The notes under the pieces are model-generated. The model was not told the DNA's origin and ran no database searches. It was given only the letters and a program-made list of their open reading frames with translations. From Asterionellopsis glacialis (taxonomy: Eukaryota > Bacillariophyta > Plagiogrammaphyceae > Rhaphoneidales > Asterionellopsidaceae), in the NCBI GenBank assembly GCA_014885115.2, contig WKLE02002181.1:1-64000 (forward strand): 64,000 nt of DNA. The letters run 5' to 3'. Each line of letters starts with the position of its first letter. Position 1 is the first letter of the stretch. Position numbers and translations under genes: made by a program. This document shows, one piece after another, positions 1 to 10,780 of this stretch.

Positions 1-891
1 ACATAGTGAGAAGAGTGAGGATTCTTGTTTAGATTTGTTGGAAAAATCCATCAGTCAACAAAAAATATCATGGCAGTAAGAAATGTTGCTTATTCTATGA
101 ATCTATGGTGTTTCAAATGATTACATTCCTTTTTCAATGGAGGAAATACATCCTGATGTTAAGAAGAAGTTTACTTTTACTTCAATGAATGAAGAAACAG
201 AAGATGTGTTATCATTTACATAATCTATAATCAATATTTTTCCCCTATATTTGCATCATGAACAATTCAGAACATCATCTGGTTTTGTGACCTCTTTAAT
301 TTCATACAGAAAAGTTCTTTACAACATGGATATGCAGTGTTACTAAATGGAAGTACTCAAAGAATGGATTATTACAATACATCATAACATCATGTCCTAA
401 GAGCAGGATTTACAAGTCACCTAAAAAATGAAAAAATGAATTCTGGCAGGATTTAAATAGGCAGTGTATTGCAACCCATGTTAAGAAACAGAGATTTTTA
501 AACAATAGGAATGGCTCTCTTGTCACCAATGCATACACCTGGCCTTTAAAAATGATCAATTAGGGTCTAGACCATTAACAAGTAATGACATATGCAAGTT
601 TATAATGGCTGTATATGTTGATACTAAGAAGGACATGTATCACAACAAATATGGGACAGGTTGTTCTTGTCACAATGGTCATCCAAAGCTGCAATCAAAT
701 GAAGTGGTCCCCACAAGATAGTCCTCAGGCCTTGAAAGTACTAACAGAAATGAACAAGGCCCAATGTACTATTCCAAAAAACCTGTAGACAAACTTATTC
801 TTTAAAAAGAAAGATACACATTTACATCATCAAACATATCTTCTTACCTTAGCAAGATCTACAATGTGACACCCAGTATGCATAATGGGAA

Positions 892-1345
892 ATGAACTCA
901 TGTGTAGAATTGTTGAAAGTACTTTCATCACAAAAGGGAATAAGATACATGACATTCAGCCACATCAATCCAACTATATGTAAGGATCACTCCATACCAA
1001 ACATCAGAGGTAGTAGAACAAGAGAAAAGGAACTATTGAATATGAAATCAATTTTGGTAACACAGAGGAGAGTACTCAAGTTAAATTTACCTTTTAATAT
1101 GAACATATTTTGAAGTTATCAAGTCAATTCACTCTATAAGAAGAGATATGACAATTGATGAAAAGAATTCTGTATTAATGGTGGGGCTTGTGGTTGGACT
1201 ACTAGTACTGAAGAACAAAGTCTATTCAAATTTTTCTCTGAAGTTTTAATTGCAGATGCAACACATGGTGTTCTATAAACAGATAGAGAAGACCATTGTT
1301 TATGCTGTATGCAAGGGATAGTAACAGAAGAACATTCATTCCTAC
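892..1345 (+). pseudogene. Decayed transposase-like coding remnant
   Basis: Frame 1 reads as protein-like sequence through 892-1113, then continues in the same frame beyond three TGA codons to about 1345. The part at 1195-1278 contains a stretch (WTTSTEEQ followed by FSEVLIADATHG) that resembles the region around the first catalytic Asp of Mutator-like (MULE) DDE transposases, where a pattern like fPEVl-DaTy is usual. The first stops are TGA, which CpG deamination of CGA arginine codons would produce; a later one is TAA and is not explained that way. The family assignment is by eye and tentative. It is clearly not functional. Confidence 0.3.
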
Positions 1346-1664
1346 ATAAATATTAATTCCCAATGAATATGGATTTTTAATATGTTTTTTCTCAATGTAG
1401 TATTCCAGAACTATTGAGGGAGGAAGAATGTACAGAGGTCAAATTAATCATAAAACAGATGATGACAATAACACATATATCGAGCATTTGATCAATGTCA
1501 GCCCTCTATATATATTCTATATTTAATAGCTAGGATAAGAAGGTGTCTTTATCACTTAATCTTCAAAATTTTTCAGAGTTAATACTAAACTTTGCTGATC
1601 TATCACCAGTTGGACCAAAAGTTTTTTCTAATGTAAAGCAATTGTTACATAATTTGTCATCCTA

Positions 1665-1883
1665 TCCTGAAACTGAAGAGAAAATCAATTTTCAAAGAAT
1701 TCTTTGCAAGATCTATATCATGTTAGTCTAGTAAGAAAAATCACATTACCAAAATGAAATAACTTTCTACAAAACTGTCCTGAAACTGAAGAGAAAATCA
1801 ATTTTCAAAGAATTCTTTGCAAGATCTATATCATGTTAGTCTAGTAAGAAATATCACATTAGCAAAATGAAATGACTTTCTAC
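1665..1883. repeat. Tandem duplication of a 106-bp unit
   Basis: Positions 1665-1770 and 1778-1883 are the same 106-bp sequence with three mismatches, separated by 7 bp (period 113). The high identity against a heavily decayed background implies a recent local duplication. Confidence 0.9.
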
Positions 1884-2768
1884 ACTTTATCATGGGTATA
1901 CCACATTATGATAAAAGGACAACATTTCCTTCAGAAGGGAATAATGGTGCCATGAAGAAGTCACATACTACTGGAATAAATCAAACTGTACAAGCTTTGT
2001 CAAGAGCAGACTCTGACCCCTCTCTGCCTGCACACATTTTTGCAAAAAGCTGGCATCCTCTACTCTCATAACAATGATGATCACTTTACCACTGGCTGCC
2101 AGCTCATTCTTGCTCAAGTCAACAATTCTCTTTATATGCATATAACAACAATCTTCCTAAGACACTAACTCACTGATGGGATGGGTATTTAGTATGGCCT
2201 TTTATGTTTAATTGATTGATTGCTGATTATTATTGATCTGGTACATTACACTGGTAGTGTTGCTAGGTGATGTGGTGTTCTATCTGGCCCAACACTCTTG
2301 CAAAGAGTTACATCTGCATTTAAGTTGATGCTTTGTTGTCTGGTGGACCATAATTGTATCCTTCCCTCCCTTCTAAAATGACAATAAGAAGCAATGTATT
2401 TTAAGGCCAATTAATGGGTTTTTGGCTATTGTAGTCAGCAATGCCTTTCTAATCAATAAGCTTGATTTTCCTGATTTTTCCAATGTAGAATACTGTCACT
2501 TTGACATTTGAAAATAGGTACTAATGAGCTCATTTTTGTGTGGAGTTTCTCACATAAAAAATTATTGTGGGGAAATCCATGAGAAGGAGGGGGGAATAGT
2601 CTGCTCTGGTATGAACTCAGATAAACTAGAAACTTCTACTGGCAACATTTTTAAGTACTTCCATTAATTTTTAGTAAGAAAGGGAAAGTCAGCATACCAG
2701 CTGATATCAAATCCTACATGTTCAATTACTTGCACACCTACTAATTTGACTATAATGAGGCAGAAAAG

Positions 2769-2792
2769 ACTCTGACTCTGACTCTGACTCTG
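2769..2792. repeat. Hexanucleotide microsatellite (ACTCTG)4
   Basis: Four perfect copies of ACTCTG followed by a degenerate fifth, inside the CpG-depleted tract. Confidence 0.9.
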
Positions 2793-2817
2793 AATCTAAT
2801 TAAATCTCAATCCTATT

Positions 2818-3162
2818 ATGGTTACAGGATTACCTCAACTGAATAGTATGTTGGAAAGGGAAAGTAGGAATGACTGTATACAATGCCTACAACCCAGTTT
2901 TGAGAGGTGTGAAACTGAAATATTCTTGAGTGGAAGATATGAGATACATGGTATTGGTTATCAGCATATCATTCATATATTTGGTATATATAGACTTCAT
3001 CTATATTATATCACATTATCTTTATCTTGCAAAACCATGAAAATTTATGTGAATGGTTTATGCAATAGTATCCAAAATATTGATGCATTTCAGTTTGCTA
3101 ATAATGTATTTATAGAACTAAAATCAAAACTAGTTGCAGCAAATTGTTCTCCAATAAAATGA
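2818..3162 (+). pseudogene. Unrecognised 114-codon open frame in the CpG-free tract
   Basis: This is the longest ATG-initiated frame in the first 5 kb. The predicted peptide has several Cys and a middle rich in Ile, His and Tyr, and matches nothing I recognise. It contains no CpG at all, like its surroundings. It has no good start context and no visible partner exon. It is best regarded as a leftover of a mobile element, or chance, rather than a gene. Confidence 0.2.
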
Positions 3163-5231
3163 ACCATTTAAGATAAGTGAATGCATCAGCAAGAGAAAAG
3201 ATATCAGAAGAATTATAATTTATCAAGAATTTGGATTACTTCTAATACACCTATGTATTAAAGAAAAAATATAAAAGATTGAAGTCATTACCTGAACATG
3301 TCCTCATAATGGCACAATTGAGAATATTTAAAAATGAATGAGATTATTCTTATGGCATATCCAAAAATGCCCCATCAGAAACTTCAAATATCAAAGTTTC
3401 AACATTTTTAAGATTGACAAATCCCTCTGGGGTATATAAAAATTGCAACCCTAGATCATTCATTGTATGTACTTTTATTTTGTTTCCCCCCACTAGAAGG
3501 ACACATTATATAGGTTTGGATGTTCTATGCCATACTTTCTAATTCACACATCTATATACTAGAGCTGATGTCTACTTCTGATCTACTGTAAAACATTCCT
3601 CCTCAGAAAAATCTCCCATCTCAAAAAAGTCTAAAATCATATTATCTACATCAAAGGAAATATCTAGAAGAAGAATGGACTATAACCTATCTCAGTAAAC
3701 TTGTGCTATCATATTCAGTAAGGCCTCTATGGATATTTTTTTTGTTTCCATTTATATCAGCCCTGGAATTAATACTCCAGTTGTAAGAGTACAAGCTTGA
3801 TGCTCAGATAAATTTGGAACATTATACATGTTCTTGGAGCAGTATAGTTTTTCAACAGTTCCAGAGGAGTTCCAACCATTCCTGCAAGCAAGGGAGACAT
3901 TGAATTAGATGAGATTTTTGAGAAATGTATGGATATAGATGGTATTCCCTGTAATTTTGAACAATACCAAAATATTTTCCATCTTTCTCCATGCCCAACT
4001 GTGACTTTGATTGTCTTGTTAACTCCAGCATCATACCATAAGCAATTAATTATAGAAACCATCCTCTGAATCTCTTTTCTTACCCTTCAGTACAAGACAT
4101 TAACAAAGATGCAATATATACAGATGATTATTTGATGGACATGCTGGTGCAATCCAAGAGTTCCAACCATTCCTGCATATGAATATCTTTGCAATTCATC
4201 ATTGACTGTATTGCTCATAAGGGATCTATGAAATCTTGAATCAAAAGTAATTCATTGGTCATGACATGTCATAGAATACTAGAATGTATGACATGCTATT
4301 ATAGAGGAGTACTACTGCCATTATTGTTGAGTTCATTTGTAACATGTAAATCTACTATTTTTTTCAATATTTTTTCAATTTGAATGCAAGTTCTTGAGTC
4401 TAACTTAGGAAAAAAATAACTTTGAGCAATCCTTTGCTGTTGTGTGTTTATTAGAATCACAATACTGTTCTTCTAGCTAGTTTCCTACATGGTGACCTTC
4501 AATTAAAGAAGGAATATTTACATTCTCATTATGCCAGTTTGATTTCCATGGATTATGTGATCTTTTGGTTACAACAGATTGATAATAATAATTATTGCCT
4601 TGCAATCAACATGAATTCATATCTTCTTGTGAGAAATGATGAAAAACAACTATTACAATATCTGGGGAAAAGAATCTTCTGCCATGACCATATATATTCC
4701 AACTTTGCAATAATCCTTTTATCCTGCTGGATTATCCACTAAATAGCAATTCTCTTCTCTTCAATGTTATTGAAAAACAACCAACAAAGTTTGGACAAAA
4801 CTCCAGTATTCTTTTGTCCATCCCCTAATATCATTCTTAACCTGTTTCTTTAAGCACATCTTTGCACTAAACAAAATGTATGTTTTATTTCTCATTTAAG
4901 CATACTTTTCACACTGGGAGTCAAACAATTCCTCCACCATCAATTCATAAACAAATGGCTAACAGTGGCATGCAGAACATAACAGCAACAACAATTCATA
5001 CTGCAGAAGTTGGACAGACCAAACAGTAGAAAATGGTGAACACATCTTTGAGTATCCAAACATACAATGATGAGAGAAACTCTATGACAAATGTGTAATT
5101 CATTTCATCAATTAACTCCTTTGAATGAAAATGTGTCTACCTCTGATTAAAAATCCTTAGGCAAACATACTGCACTGGACCTGGAACACTCCATTAGTGA
5201 AACCAACAATACCTCCCACTCAGAAGACCCA

Positions 5232-5778
5232 CGATGCGCGACTCCAAAAAGCATTTGATGAGCAAACAGCCATCGGATGGCAGGCATAACCTTATGAAAG
5301 GATGGCTCTCCAACAAGTGGATACTTGCCCAAGATGCTTTTCTTCCAACATCAAAAGCTACAAGATCCTACTACTGATCACAACAAGAAAAATGGCATAA
5401 TGTGGGGCAAATAACTCGTAAGTGGATTACACCATATCATACGAAACATGGATCCTTAGAAATAAGGATATCCACGGTCACAACAAGACTGAAGAAAACC
5501 AAACACGACTGGAACGTCTCCGCCAGAAAACTTGCAACGTATATATTCGAGTATGTATACGATAAAAGACTTACCCGGTACGTTTCCAACTGTGATTTTT
5601 TTTTCAAACTGCCATCCATCTCAGCAAGTTCGAAAAGTACGAAAGCGAAGGTATTGAGAGGAGAAGGACTCGATTCTGACAGCTATTGTACGAGTAGCTT
5701 TGAGTAAAGCAATGCACCACAAACTACAATCCCAACAAGCACATAGCAAACTGTCAATCAAATAGCACGTCTCTCACC
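5232..5778. other. Upstream region of the TMEM43-like gene
   Basis: CpG frequency returns to normal at 5232. Frames here lack a convincing ATG-initiated coding pattern. The last 100 bp before the ATG at 5779 are A-rich and probably 5' UTR and promoter. No TATA box or other motif is obvious. Confidence 0.5.
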
Positions 5779-7446
5779 ATGTCAGACACAGGAAATGATG
5801 ATGCAGAAGTAGGAGGAGGGGAAGAGATAGGAGGAGATGTTGATGTAGCTAACCGTGACTTTGAGATGACTGAAACGTCGTATCAGTCTTACTGCGGCAA
5901 AATGGGAGATTCATGCAAAGGACTTTGTTTTGGAATGATTCTTTTTGTAGTGTCTATTGTCCTCCTTGTCTTCAACGAAGGTCGTGCTGTCCGTCGCGCG
6001 AAAGACCTAGAGGAAGGACAAGAAATCGTTGTAGATATTGATCTTTCGGAATTTAGTAAGACAGTGAATGGAAACAACAATGAACTAATTCACGCTGTAG
6101 GAAAACTCTCTACGAACAGCACTTTGACCGATGACATCTTTGGAGTAACGACCGGTACGGCCGAAGAGGTAAATGATATCTTCGAAGTGACAGATACGAA
6201 TGTTTCAACCAGCGAGAACAACACGACAGCTGCGAATGTATCAACCAGCGAGGTCGTAACAACAACGAATGACTTCGCACTTCGTCTCAAACGTAGCATT
6301 GAGATGTACCAGTGGAAAGAGAGGTCAACTAAAAGAGAAGTCAAAACATCGAACGGTGGAACTAGAACTGAGACAACATATTCTTATGACAAGGTTTGGT
6401 CAAGTACTTTCATAAATTCGAATTCTTTCAAAAACCAAAATACCCAAACTCAGAATCCAAGGTCCTTTCCCTTCGAACCTCTCGAATTGAAAGCTGAAAA
6501 TATCCTTTTGGGAAATGTACTTGAAGTGTCTACACCAGTAATCGACAAATTTACTTGGTATGAGCCAATTGACAGTGTTGAAGTCAAAAACATCCCCGAT
6601 GTTCAACTACAACAGAGGATCGAGAAGCAATCTCAAAACAAATTTTATTACTATGCAAACCCACAATCTATCAATATTTCCACGGGCTCAGAAATTGGTG
6701 ATACCATTATTTCTTTTGATGTTGTGGAACCGGTGATTATTACTATCGTTGCACTTTTGGAGAATGGAAAGTTGAGTGAATTTCAAACAAGTCGCGGAGG
6801 AGAATTACTTCTCATAAAGCGTGGTGAATATACATCTGATGAAATGTTCCAACAAGCAAATGAGGAAAATGAGCAACTCACATGGGTTCTAAGATTTGTT
6901 GGATTTTTCCTCATGGTAGTCTCGATCCTTCTTTTCCTTCAACCTATTGCAACTGCAACAGACATTATTCCCTTTGTTGGTGATTGTTTGGGTGATGGTT
7001 TAGAGGGGTGCCTGTTCCCTATAATTGCTGTCATCATTGCTTTGCCGATATCTCTTCTTGTCATTATGATTGCATGGTTGGCTTATCGTCCGATCATTGC
7101 CATCCCACTTGTGATTGGTTCTGGTGCAATCATTATCTGCTTGTGTATGCGTGTTCGTAAGAGCCAGGCAAACAAGCCCGACAAAACGGATGATGAAGAT
7201 AACAAGCCAAGTTATGCATCTGGAACACCCTACACCTCGAGTGCGCCACAAGCCCAAGCCCAAGCCCAACCATACTACCATCAATCGAAACCTACAGCCC
7301 AAATCCCCACTAACGACGTTCCATTTTCTCAAGCATTGGATCTACCACCTCCAAGTCAACAACAGCAGCACGCGATGCCTTTGCCTTCTGCTGAACCAGA
7401 AGTGGTGGTGAATCCACCATTCGTCCCTCAAATCTACAAACCTTAG
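5779..7446 (+). CDS. TMEM43 (LUMA)-family membrane protein
   Basis: Single-exon gene of 555 codons. After an acidic N-terminus, residues about 48-66 form a membrane segment running into FNEGRAVRRAKDLEEG, the hallmark start of the TMEM43 domain. A long lumenal region follows (about 70-365), with the family-typical EMYQWKE near residue 180. Then comes a hydrophobic C-terminal cluster at about 366-390 and 408-457 that includes LTWVLRFVGFFLM and DIIPFVGD. The C-terminal tail is cytosol-like, with a repeated Ala-Gln stretch and Pro/Gln-rich sequence absent from animal TMEM43. Animal homologues sit in the ER and inner nuclear membrane; that location is inferred here. The insert at about 95-175, Thr/Asn/Ser-rich with many N-glycosylation sequons, also looks lineage-specific. 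Confidence 0.87.
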   Translation: MSDTGNDDAEVGGGEEIGGDVDVANRDFEMTETSYQSYCGKMGDSCKGLCFGMILFVVSIVLLVFNEGRAVRRAKDLEEGQEIVVDIDLSEFSKTVNGNNNELIHAVGKLSTNSTLTDDIFGVTTGTAEEVNDIFEVTDTNVSTSENNTTAANVSTSEVVTTTNDFALRLKRSIEMYQWKERSTKREVKTSNGGTRTETTYSYDKVWSSTFINSNSFKNQNTQTQNPRSFPFEPLELKAENILLGNVLEVSTPVIDKFTWYEPIDSVEVKNIPDVQLQQRIEKQSQNKFYYYANPQSINISTGSEIGDTIISFDVVEPVIITIVALLENGKLSEFQTSRGGELLLIKRGEYTSDEMFQQANEENEQLTWVLRFVGFFLMVVSILLFLQPIATATDIIPFVGDCLGDGLEGCLFPIIAVIIALPISLLVIMIAWLAYRPIIAIPLVIGSGAIIICLCMRVRKSQANKPDKTDDEDNKPSYASGTPYTSSAPQAQAQAQPYYHQSKPTAQIPTNDVPFSQALDLPPPSQQQQHAMPLPSAEPEVVVNPPFVPQIYKP

Positions 7447-7785: not shown

Positions 7786-9024
7786 TCATGACAAAGGTTT
7801 GGATGCTACTGCTAGAAATAAGATGAGCACCCAGCAAACTTTGTTTGAAAAGGCTGATGATCCTTGGTCTTCGGAAGAGCATTTCTTTGGAGGGAAAAAA
7901 GCCTCAACCGCCTTTAGTGCATTTTCTACCTGCACGCAGTCATTGATAGAGATTCTATCCCCTAAAACTTCTCCAGTTGTGGGATGTACAACGCTTTCTC
8001 CTACGATTACACGACAAGTTGCAGAAATGGCTTCAGCGGTACTCTTGAATGTAAATGCTGCAGATGACGTAGAGGTTGCTGCGTCGTCTTTCCCGATCGT
8101 GGGGGAAAACATGCCTTTCAAAACAATAAGCAATGACTTTGGGAGTCCTAGTGATTGAACGGTGTAGCCGTTGTAGTTGCCACCATCCACTAAAAGAGCA
8201 AAGGCGTGATTTAAGACACCATTATTCATATGGGCTCTTTTTGTTTGTCCGTTAGATTCTGAATGACCTTCTCCACAGATGAAAGATGACGAACCTGTTC
8301 GACCTGCAGCTCCGAAGCATTCAGGATTCCACATGTCTCTTGCGGGGCACATGTCAGAGTCACAATTGGAGCCAACTAACCAGCGTTTTGAGTCTTCGGT
8401 ACCAGCAGACCCCTCGATAAAAACGAAGGAATTTTCTCCGTATTTTGAGCACCCACCATCGCGAGGGGTGTTAGGTGTAGGTGGAGATCCATATTCTTGA
8501 ACTGAAAACCCTATAATGTCTGCAAATGCTTCCGCAACCGCCCACTCCTCTGCAGTCCGTTTTGGTTGGAGCCCAGCCATGAATCCATACCCATGCCCCC
8601 ATTCGTGTCCAACCCAAAAGGCAGTGGACATCCCGGGACAAAAGACGGTGCCGTAATGGCCACTTGAATCGATGGTAAAGTAGGCGTCGTTGTATGAGCA
8701 TGCTTGATTTGGAGGTCTCAACCTTGTGCTTACGCTATCTACAACACCAAACATGGTATTGTTGATTTCTGTTGGATTCCATCCCGGTTCAAGCCCAATC
8801 ACGTTGTAGAAAATACTGTAGGTTAGTTCAGTAAATTCTAAGAAATCGTCGATAACTTGGACTCCCGTTGGAAACAGGTCTCCTTCCTTCCAATCCGGGC
8901 TATCAACATTATAATTATTAAGCCATACTTTGCGATGAAGGGCTCCATTAACTACAAACGGATGCAAGATAACGGCAATTTTAATCAGCGAGAGAAGATA
9001 ATAATTTTCTTGTAGAAATTTCAT
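7786..9024 (-). CDS. Secreted or surface M4 (thermolysin-type) metallopeptidase
   Basis: The frame opens at 9123, but the ATG at 9024 gives a clean signal peptide (MKFLQ, then a hydrophobic run ending VVNGA), so I take 9024 as the start (412 aa). The zinc site HEWGHGYGF (His140, Glu141, His144) is followed 21 residues after the second His by AEAFADIIG, supplying the third ligand Glu165, the M4 spacing. Further on, KRAHMNNGVLNHAF matches the region around the catalytic His231 of thermolysin. The N-terminal FTLP/PepSY propeptide usual in bacterial M4 enzymes is missing. The C-terminus ends in a hydrophobic segment (CWVLILFLAVA) preceded by small residues, resembling a GPI or membrane anchor. 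Substrate unknown. Confidence 0.85.
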   Translation of the reverse strand: MKFLQENYYLLSLIKIAVILHPFVVNGALHRKVWLNNYNVDSPDWKEGDLFPTGVQVIDDFLEFTELTYSIFYNVIGLEPGWNPTEINNTMFGVVDSVSTRLRPPNQACSYNDAYFTIDSSGHYGTVFCPGMSTAFWVGHEWGHGYGFMAGLQPKRTAEEWAVAEAFADIIGFSVQEYGSPPTPNTPRDGGCSKYGENSFVFIEGSAGTEDSKRWLVGSNCDSDMCPARDMWNPECFGAAGRTGSSSFICGEGHSESNGQTKRAHMNNGVLNHAFALLVDGGNYNGYTVQSLGLPKSLLIVLKGMFSPTIGKDDAATSTSSAAFTFKSTAEAISATCRVIVGESVVHPTTGEVLGDRISINDCVQVENALKAVEAFFPPKKCSSEDQGSSAFSNKVCWVLILFLAVASKPLS

Positions 9025-9277
9025 TTCGATCGTGTTCTTGTCAAAGAAGAAAATGTGATCTCGAGATCGCTTGTCAGGGAGATATGAAAATGAGAAGCCG
9101 CAACCATCAACCAGCCAGGACATGTGTACCGGTACCTGTAGACGGGTACCTGGTAGGTATATGAAGTACTAGAGGGCTTCTCCCGATGGTAGTACTCAAG
9201 CAACGTAGGATCTACATACGAATGAATTCATTTTCTAGCTCCTACTACAAGACACAAAGTGGGACTTGCACAAGAAG

Positions 9278-9367: not shown

Positions 9368-9396
9368 ACAGAAGACAAGAATCGACAAGTCCATCG

Positions 9397-10780
9397 ATTT
9401 GAATACAAAAAAAAAGTTATTGGGTGTTGCAGAAAAATAATGCTCCACCTTCAATACTTTTGTCCCAAATTACTCCAGAAATTAAAAAGGGCAATGTTTT
9501 CTTTTGAAGCAGAATTTTTATTACATTATTGCCACCACCAGCATTCTTACCAAAACCATTATCAGTAGTTGCAACAGAAGCAGTAGCACCACCAAAATCA
9601 CCAGCAATTGTTGTAGAGTTGACAGAACCAGCAGCAATATCACCAGAATCAGCACCTTTCTATCTTGTCTAAATAAAGACTCTATATGAGTGACTTTTTT
9701 AGAGTAATTTATATATGAAGGTACAGTATTTCACACTCAATAATGAGAACAGACAATTGATCTCAATTTTGTTTTGTTGGATTCACTATTTTTTCATAAA
9801 ACATTGTTCTTGCATCCTTATTTTTTGGTTATTGAATTATGGTGTTTAAAAACCATATATTGTATATTGACTCCCTCATGACTTTTCAAAGTAAGCAATT
9901 TGGATTCAAAATACAATATAGTATATCATGAGTTCTATAATCAAACAATCAACCAAGAACATTCTTATTTTGTTTACTAGATTAATTATTTTTCTCCCAA
10001 GTTGCTGCTTTTTTTAATATTAATTTGATTTGCAAAGTTGAAGACTGTGACATAGTTCTCATATATTACTTGACTAGGAAGTATATAATTTTATCAAAAA
10101 GAAGATTTGCAACAATTGAAACTTATTCTGTTCCATTATGAAGAACTCTGGAGTCTGTATTACTTGTTATAATCTCAAGAAGTTCTTGCAAAATATATAA
10201 ATTTGATTCTTGGGAACCAAATGACTTTACAACACTCATATAGGAACAATGGATGACAATTTTCTTGATAATTCTTGGTTAATTCAAATCAACTGTCACA
10301 TTATTATACTAAAAAATTATCCAAGAGGGTGATGCTATAATATAGTAACTACTAAAAGTACTGATCAATTAAATAAATCAGCATTACTGACCATGTATGT
10401 CAAGACTTTTTCCACATTGTCATCATTAAAGCTTGACAGTTCTATGCAATATGTGATGAAGACTTGAGGTCTTGACAGTGCCTGAAGCTTGTTAGTATAC
10501 CTACTTTTACTGGCTTGGCCTGTTTAACTGATTATTTTGAGATCATTTCTTTTTCAACCCATGAACAAAGAAATGATGGAAATAATTCATGTTTAGTTTG
10601 AAGTAAAGTCAACTAGTTCAGAATACTATTGGAGAAATTCTAATGTTAGAATGTGTATTCAATGCAGTAAGTGCAATGCATGGTAGAGCTTCAACTAGTC
10701 CAGAAAACTATTGGGAGAAATTCTATGATCTGATGCACACAGCCTTGTTTCTGCTTGTTTTTTGCACTCAAGTTTTGATT
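9397..10780. other. Second CpG-free block
   Basis: No CG dinucleotide between 9397 and 10780 (1,384 bp), while CpGs flank it at 9383, 9395 and 10781. Composition is AT-rich like 1-5231. Apart from the minus-strand remnant at its left end, only short frames exist. This is probably another methylated, decaying insertion. The absence of CpG is seen directly; the cause is inferred. Confidence 0.75.
9421..9665 (-). pseudogene. Gly/Ala/Thr-rich coding remnant
   Basis: Read on the minus strand from about 9660 to the TAA near 9424, one frame stays open for about 80 codons. It starts with a low-complexity Gly/Ala/Ser/Thr/Asn-rich stretch using GGT and GCT codons, then turns into ordinary hydrophobic sequence. 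An in-frame TAG lies just upstream and there is no start codon. It may be the tail of a repeat-rich surface-type protein captured in the decayed block. I do not recognise the family. Confidence 0.25.

Follow-up and report, generated by a model that had tools for sequence, protein, structure and literature searches.

The window analyzed here is the whole stretch of DNA under study, i.e., the first 64,000 nucleotides of Asterionellopsis glacialis contig WKLE02002181.1 (C754, from base 1); L-numbers below denote other stretches of the same genome. It opens with a block of 5.2 kb that is almost free of CpG dinucleotides and ends sharply ahead of a TMEM43 gene. The block, its edge, and the adjacent gene comprise the following features, in window coordinates:

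1..5231, no strand: CpG-erased block, 1 CpG vs ~142 expected, GC 0.33, left side truncated by the contig start
332..3206, plus strand: decayed repeat, with pieces 332-1164, 1274-1990, 2622-3001, and 3030-3206 matching L006 at 67-78% identity
1481..1482, no strand: sole CpG of the erased block
1662..1884, plus strand: tandem pair of 110 bp each, 96% identical, within the erased block
2030..2618, plus strand: short repeat with inverted termini, 0/27 scorable ancestral CpGs kept, non-CpG divergence 0.162
3323..4903, minus strand: second decayed repeat, with pieces 3323-3867 and 4168-4903 matching L005 in opposite orientation at 69-71% identity
3887..4166, plus strand: fragment matching L006 at 72% identity, sitting between the two L005-like pieces (nesting)
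4978..5646, plus strand: C-terminal relic of a retroelement-like open reading frame (ORF), in one frame, spanning the CpG edge (tblastn with an ORF of L007)
5170..5232, no strand: 95% interval of the CpG edge from a change-point model
5779..7446, plus strand: TMEM43 gene with normal CpG density (Pfam PF07787, E 1.4e-63)

Overall, positions 1-5231 hold a single CpG (at 1481), compared with 141.9 predicted by base composition, an observed/expected ratio (O/E) of 0.007, while positions 5232-64000 contain 1980 against 2487 (O/E ~0.80), the GC content of the whole window being 0.405. At the normal O/E of 0.80, the Poisson probability of finding at most one CpG in the block is 6e-48. The longest CpG-free run measures 3751 bp (1481-5231), compared with a maximum of 248 bp in 10782-64000. 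An original prediction made from the letters of this DNA had described a single CG followed by normal density, and had proposed computing CpG O/E along the contig; the count is exact, and the ratio of the block lies far below that of its flanks. TG and CA, which it had called common, exceed expectation in all five of the first 1-kb bins (TG 70 vs 48 and CA 95 vs 64 in bin one), albeit with a milder excess that is also common across the remainder of the window. The block abuts the contig start, which truncates it on the left.

We next placed the block in its genomic context through a three-state CpG segmentation of ~254 kb, i.e., the window and 20 further 10-kb stretches of this genome (three at DNA matches to the edge region, two on the contig that carries the window, and 15 at the starts of contigs chosen by number). 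This assigned 191 kb to a normal state (CpG O/E 0.80), 30 kb to an intermediate one (0.25), and 32.5 kb to an erased one (0.04, a value biased downward since erased segments are selected by the segmentation itself). From normal to intermediate to erased segments, TpG/CpA climbs from 1.23 to 1.35 and 1.41, with GpC steady at 0.93-0.97. All four NCG contexts drop alike, CHG and CHH contexts are spared, and erased segments are AT-richer (GC 0.31-0.38 vs ~0.40). Among the 15 number-picked contig starts (144.5 kb, probably repeat-biased), erased sequence was found in 4 and erased or intermediate sequence in 7, amounting to 6.7% and 18.6% of their length, respectively. The block is thus accompanied by many similar tracts elsewhere in the genome: the erasure had been predicted to be unusually complete, and its completeness is unusual, but the tract is not unique. 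In reverse transcriptase matches, TGA accounts for 27 of 51 internal stops (50 RVT_2 matches) and 85 of 163 (148 RVT_1 matches), hand-tallied counts that would agree with CGA turning into TGA. Separately, L013:1-10000 and L014:1311-9989 are long half-eroded tracts (CpG O/E 0.23-0.29), apparently en route to erasure.

Judged from its matches within the genome, the block is a mosaic, or nest, of dead and decayed transposons. It consists of repeats plus a retroelement relic, and the other tracts share repeats in part. Homologous repeats, whose presence had been proposed as a check on the block, do occur elsewhere (L005, L006, and the short repeat), and the L006 and L005 relatives are likewise CpG-erased. 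The embedded short repeat resembles a miniature inverted-repeat transposable element, being short and present in many copies, with inverted termini that were read by eye in its consensus. Pfam scans of the block in six frames, reading through stops, returned nothing except CT021 below its cut-off (E 0.011), and protein-database searches of block regions gave zero matches at E<=10, leaving the two decayed repeats (332-3206 and 3323-4903) unnamed; positions 1230-1480 are, by eye, reminiscent of a Mutator-like transposase, a presumption and not a result. None of the scans for direct or inverted repeats, tRNAs, and Rfam families accounts for the block. The tandem duplication at 1662-1884, with a spacing of 113 bp, is apparently younger than the surrounding decay.

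The short repeat allowed the fate of a single sequence to be followed across loci. Among the 51 matches listed, 43 on 37 other contigs belong to this repeat, and we compared the 20 best-scoring of these 43 with their flanks, against a consensus with 28 CpGs; this was derived from the 12 copies rich in CpG, which biases it toward CpG. The window copy retains none of 27 scorable CpGs, which now read CA (13), TG (6), TA (1), or other (7). Among the old copies, L050, L051, and L052 keep 2, 0, and 2 CpGs at non-CpG divergences of 0.24-0.27, and L049 keeps 6/27 at 0.21. By contrast, sister copies at 1-2.5% divergence retain 25-28 of 28 CpGs, as is the case for each of eight young copies with both flanks at O/E >=0.49 (215/224 in total). 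Five young copies with at least one flank at O/E <=0.30 keep 109/140 (L033 16, L038 28, L042 15, L043 24, L044 26), L042 and L033 thus being reduced to 15/28 and 16/28 at a divergence of only 0.029. These age and flank classes are our own, and the young-copy sums leave out the old L049-L052 as well as the older L034, L046, and L048, which keep 22/28, 14/27, and 13/26. The same sequence thus fares differently depending on where it sits; overall, the loss is CpG-specific, occurred in place, is graded by age, and depends on the locus instead of the sequence. The repeat in L038 forms a small CpG island amid a near-CpG-free desert.

Independent decay of CG to TG or CA is visible not only in the short-repeat family but also between L014 and L019, where 53 sites pair CG with TG/CA and 12 pair TG with CA, against 0 for the control pair AC/GT. 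A rough age for the insertion of the window's short repeat follows from dividing its divergence by the P. tricornutum mutation rate of 4.77e-10 per site per generation (available text of PMC6604790): 0.162 / 4.77e-10 gives ~3e8 generations, an order of magnitude at best given the borrowed rate.

We then considered the right-hand edge. A single-change-point model places it between 5230 and 5232, and logistic gradients fit worse than a step, by ~3 log units at a scale of 100 bp and ~6 at 200 bp. The first ATG of the TMEM43 ORF, at 5779, lies 548 bp from the edge, in agreement with the ~550 bp predicted. An L007 ORF (7687-9246, minus strand, 520 codons, open) aligns to window positions 4978-5646 (tblastn E 3e-14, 67/226 identical) in a single frame that runs straight across 5231/5232. 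In a nucleotide alignment, of the CpGs present in L007, 0/9 survive to the left of the edge and 4/14 to its right, with identities of 44% and 58%, respectively. Because one relic crosses the edge in frame, the edge is neither an insertion end nor a foreign-DNA or assembly junction. The L007 ORF looks retroelement-like by eye and has no Pfam match; a protein search of the edge region against its own genome had yielded, apart from the self-match, nothing stronger than E 0.001, and it was the L007 ORF that identified the region instead. The idea that every edge is an element end does not hold in the window, as the relic at 4978-5646 runs through its edge. In L052, the edge may coincide with an element end, CpGs stopping within ~130 bp of the repeat end, and in L049 there is a hint of an edge inside a copy that is not significant (1/15 CpGs on one side, 5/12 on the other, Fisher P 0.06). 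Other edges lie ~580 bp from a DER1-family ORF (L006), ~410 bp from an M50-peptidase ORF (L005), ~230 bp from an unnamed ORF (L011), and >1 kb from an ORF at the other L005 edge, while distances to an ORF 3' end are ~60 bp in L012 and ~590 bp in L019. The prediction of a long-maintained boundary rather than gradual drift therefore stands for the boundary, which is sharp and cuts one relic, but not for the loss itself, which looks gradual from the graded sister copies. As a side observation, L007:7687-9246 has normal CpG content (48 vs 65 expected) and adjoins a heavily eroded tract.

The genome also contains candidate enzymes. PF00145 matches number eight, on six contigs. The ORFs of L029 match residues 349-955 of PDB chain 7r76_A in order, covering the methyltransferase and its transition into the SNF2 part. 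L031 aligns with residues 185-460 of the same chain and has a Tudor match. We take this chain to be Cryptococcus DNMT5, although the entry names the molecule Rad8; on that assumption, and by domain content, the genome encodes predicted DNMT5-type methyltransferases. L026 (contig C398, near 28-29 kb) has a chromo-plus-methyltransferase layout, with Chromo at 24.9 bits vs a cut-off of 25.1. By domains and one PDB chain, L031 seems DNMT5b-like (Tudor) and L026 DNMT4-like (chromodomain); among diatoms, Tudor domains are present in some DNMT5b proteins and a chromodomain in nine DNMT4 proteins (PMC9998398). A UDG search of the genome found two glycosylase genes and is uninformative on a T:G-specific enzyme. 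The methyl-CpG deamination that had been proposed for the block is thus supported by CG to TG/CA changes between repeat copies, by CpG-specific loss, and by the presence of DNMT5-type genes.

Taken together, we consider it very probable that the block reflects CG methylation that a DNMT5-type enzyme kept up for a long time, together with deamination, up to a stable limit ahead of the TMEM43 gene, with methylation read from its mutational scar. A DNMT5-type maintenance methyltransferase would have held a nest of dead transposons in a silent, CG-methylated chromatin state, and the methylated CpGs of this nest would have deaminated to TpG or CpA until almost none was left. Near 5.2 kb, the methylated domain would reach its stable limit, which the 5' flank of TMEM43, being unmethylated, probably sets; hence CpGs beyond it survive, even those in the relic that straddles this limit. 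We infer 5-methylcytosine (5mC) as the mark, DNMT5 as its keeper, and the gene as the setter of the boundary. Several observations weigh against this explanation. The young copy in L038 (633-1273; contig C584, ~28.7-29.4 kb) keeps 28/28 CpGs between bare flanks (0 vs 17.3 and 1 vs 16.8 expected) despite 10 private non-CpG changes, some of which could derive from an unsampled subfamily; at the mutability of L042 and L033, such retention would have a probability of ~1e-13, a figure underlain by few mutations. The footprint of independent deamination is weak or absent among the L005/L006-type repeats: the block and L006 share 201 identical TG/CA sites with a small discordance (10 vs a control of 4), that between the block and L005 is 4 vs a control of 0, and L005 and L006 have no discordance excess (1 vs 3), so the older, L005/L006-like elements of the block may have been CpG-poor before separating. 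In addition, the edge-crossing test rests on one relic, a boundary set by the gene is plausible with a handful of edges behind it, and rate ratios from part-decayed copies (10-35, with wide intervals) predict more CpGs than seen.

This last gap, as well as the resemblance of L026 to some diatom DNMT4 proteins, a family related to fungal DIM2 (available text of PMC9998398), would fit a CpG-specific mutator similar to repeat-induced point mutation (RIP), triggered by repetition, perhaps acting via the L026 chromodomain methyltransferase, and rapidly converting CpGs in duplicated DNA. However, mutation because of repetition should not spare near-identical copies, one of them inside a bare tract, nor does it readily produce half-decayed copies at low divergence or an edge that cuts a relic instead of tracking the repeat, and we regard such a mutator as unlikely. 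The shared TG/CA sites raise another scenario, in which older block elements came from a long-methylated source lineage and had little CpG left by the time of their last move or duplication, part of the loss then predating the locus. This could apply to part of the block and would still require methylation-type decay; it explains neither an embedded short repeat that lost all scorable CpGs relative to its consensus nor an edge relic that is bare on one side only, and it is distinctly unlikely.

Two further explanations do without methylation. General mutation bias in AT-rich silent DNA would agree with the lower GC of erased segments, yet GpC is unaffected, TpG/CpA rises as CpG falls, and copies of one repeat differ by locus, which makes simple CpG avoidance highly improbable. 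CpG-poor DNA of foreign, organellar, or viral origin, or a chimeric contig, could produce a sharp compositional edge and a block at a contig end, but this is barely credible for a block whose repeats occur elsewhere in the genome, one with a CpG-rich consensus, whose relic crosses the edge in one frame, and which has counterparts in many contigs.

For the preferred explanation of methylation and deamination, the completeness of erasure constrains the mutation rate. Simulated equilibria, using rates from the window's short-repeat copy, predict 21, 11, 6.5, and 3.5 CpGs in such a block at CpG rate ratios of 15, 30, 50, and 100, respectively. Depending on the model, the single CpG observed has a probability of 0.0001-0.003 at a ratio of 30 and 0.01-0.1 at 60, while the other erased segments, with 35 CpGs vs 827 expected, correspond to a ratio of ~45-60 (read between grid values). 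In a simple model, completeness would thus imply a CpG mutability of ~40-60-fold or more, compared with a vertebrate value of ~10. The gap with the part-decayed copies is read as part-time methylation of these copies, although the same discrepancy could arise from a different and stronger process. One possible, tentative picture of the methylated compartment is that its CpGs mutate at least ~40-60 times as fast as other cytosines, through unrepaired T:G mismatches or enzyme-aided deamination, and are driven near extinction for that reason; that domains are mainly maintained, with little spreading, as the intact CpG-rich newcomer of L038 in a bare tract would suggest; and that borders stay fixed within ~100 bp for very long, even across one dead element.

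Vertebrate genomes offer a familiar parallel, as they combine methylation and deamination with TpG/CpA excess and CpG-normal gene starts; however, vertebrate CpG O/E is ~0.2, compared with 0.04 in the erased tracts here and 0.007 in the window block. RIP strikes repetitive DNA at a very high rate, whereas near-identical CpG-rich copies persist here and loss is graded. The likeness to RIP lies in C-to-T scars in transposons tied to a cytosine methyltransferase (available text of PMC9246332). In the same source, Cryptococcus neoformans DNMT5 performs maintenance without de novo activity; similarly, the present genome has a DNMT5-type enzyme, and L038 resembles, as far as sequence can tell, an unmethylated newcomer in an erased tract. 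Unlike in C. neoformans, L042 and L033 lost about half of their CpGs at a divergence similar to that of L038, so some new methylation would occur here.

Among diatoms, repeat-rich tracts of Cyclotella cryptica, up to 30 kb long, are CpG-methylated and gene-rich tracts essentially unmethylated (accessible part of PMC5124317). This binary methylome, with methylated repeat tracts beside unmethylated gene tracts, resembles the layout seen here, but methylation was measured there, while we see only a mutational scar, carried to near-total CpG loss; "deaminat-" and "mutation" do not occur in the main text of that paper. In Phaeodactylum tricornutum, CG methylation is concentrated in transposable elements and is lost, mainly there, in DNMT5 knockouts, consistent with the DNMT5-type genes of the present genome; unlike P. 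tricornutum, which lacks DNMT4 and DNMT5b, this genome seems to hold DNMT5b-like and DNMT4-like genes (PMC9998398). Binary diatom methylomes are thus already known, and a strong, widespread methylation-type scar is the expected outcome of this known system, taken to an unusual extreme: what is unusual is the completeness of the loss and the sharpness of the boundary after heavy decay. In a literature search on diatom and DNMT5 methylation, CpG depletion, deamination, and repeat-induced mutation, with most subscription journals outside its coverage, no title or abstract opening among those listed concerned CpG erasure in diatom transposons. Plain genome sequence thus seems to record past methylation sites in a diatom over evolutionary time at ~100-bp resolution. 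Questions of boundary stability, of maintenance vs de novo methylation, and of what 5mC costs in mutations become testable from ordinary assemblies, with no need for methylation data, in a group where DNMT5, not DNMT1, keeps methylation.

Beyond the edge, positions 5232-80000 of the contig include one further erased segment only, of 1.34 kb, within the following stretch:

9397..10780, no strand: second, shorter CpG-free stretch of 1.38 kb, bounded by CpGs at 9395 and 10781

This stretch lies within the gene-rich part of the window; repeats similar to its left end occur on four other contigs, and another part matches C642. The nearest named protein to the window TMEM43 (47% identity) is from Kryptoperidinium foliaceum (taxid 160619), a dinoflagellate with a diatom endosymbiont. 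Beside TMEM43, an ORF on the minus strand (7789-9168) matches Peptidase_M4_C (thermolysin-type) with an E value of 2e-7.

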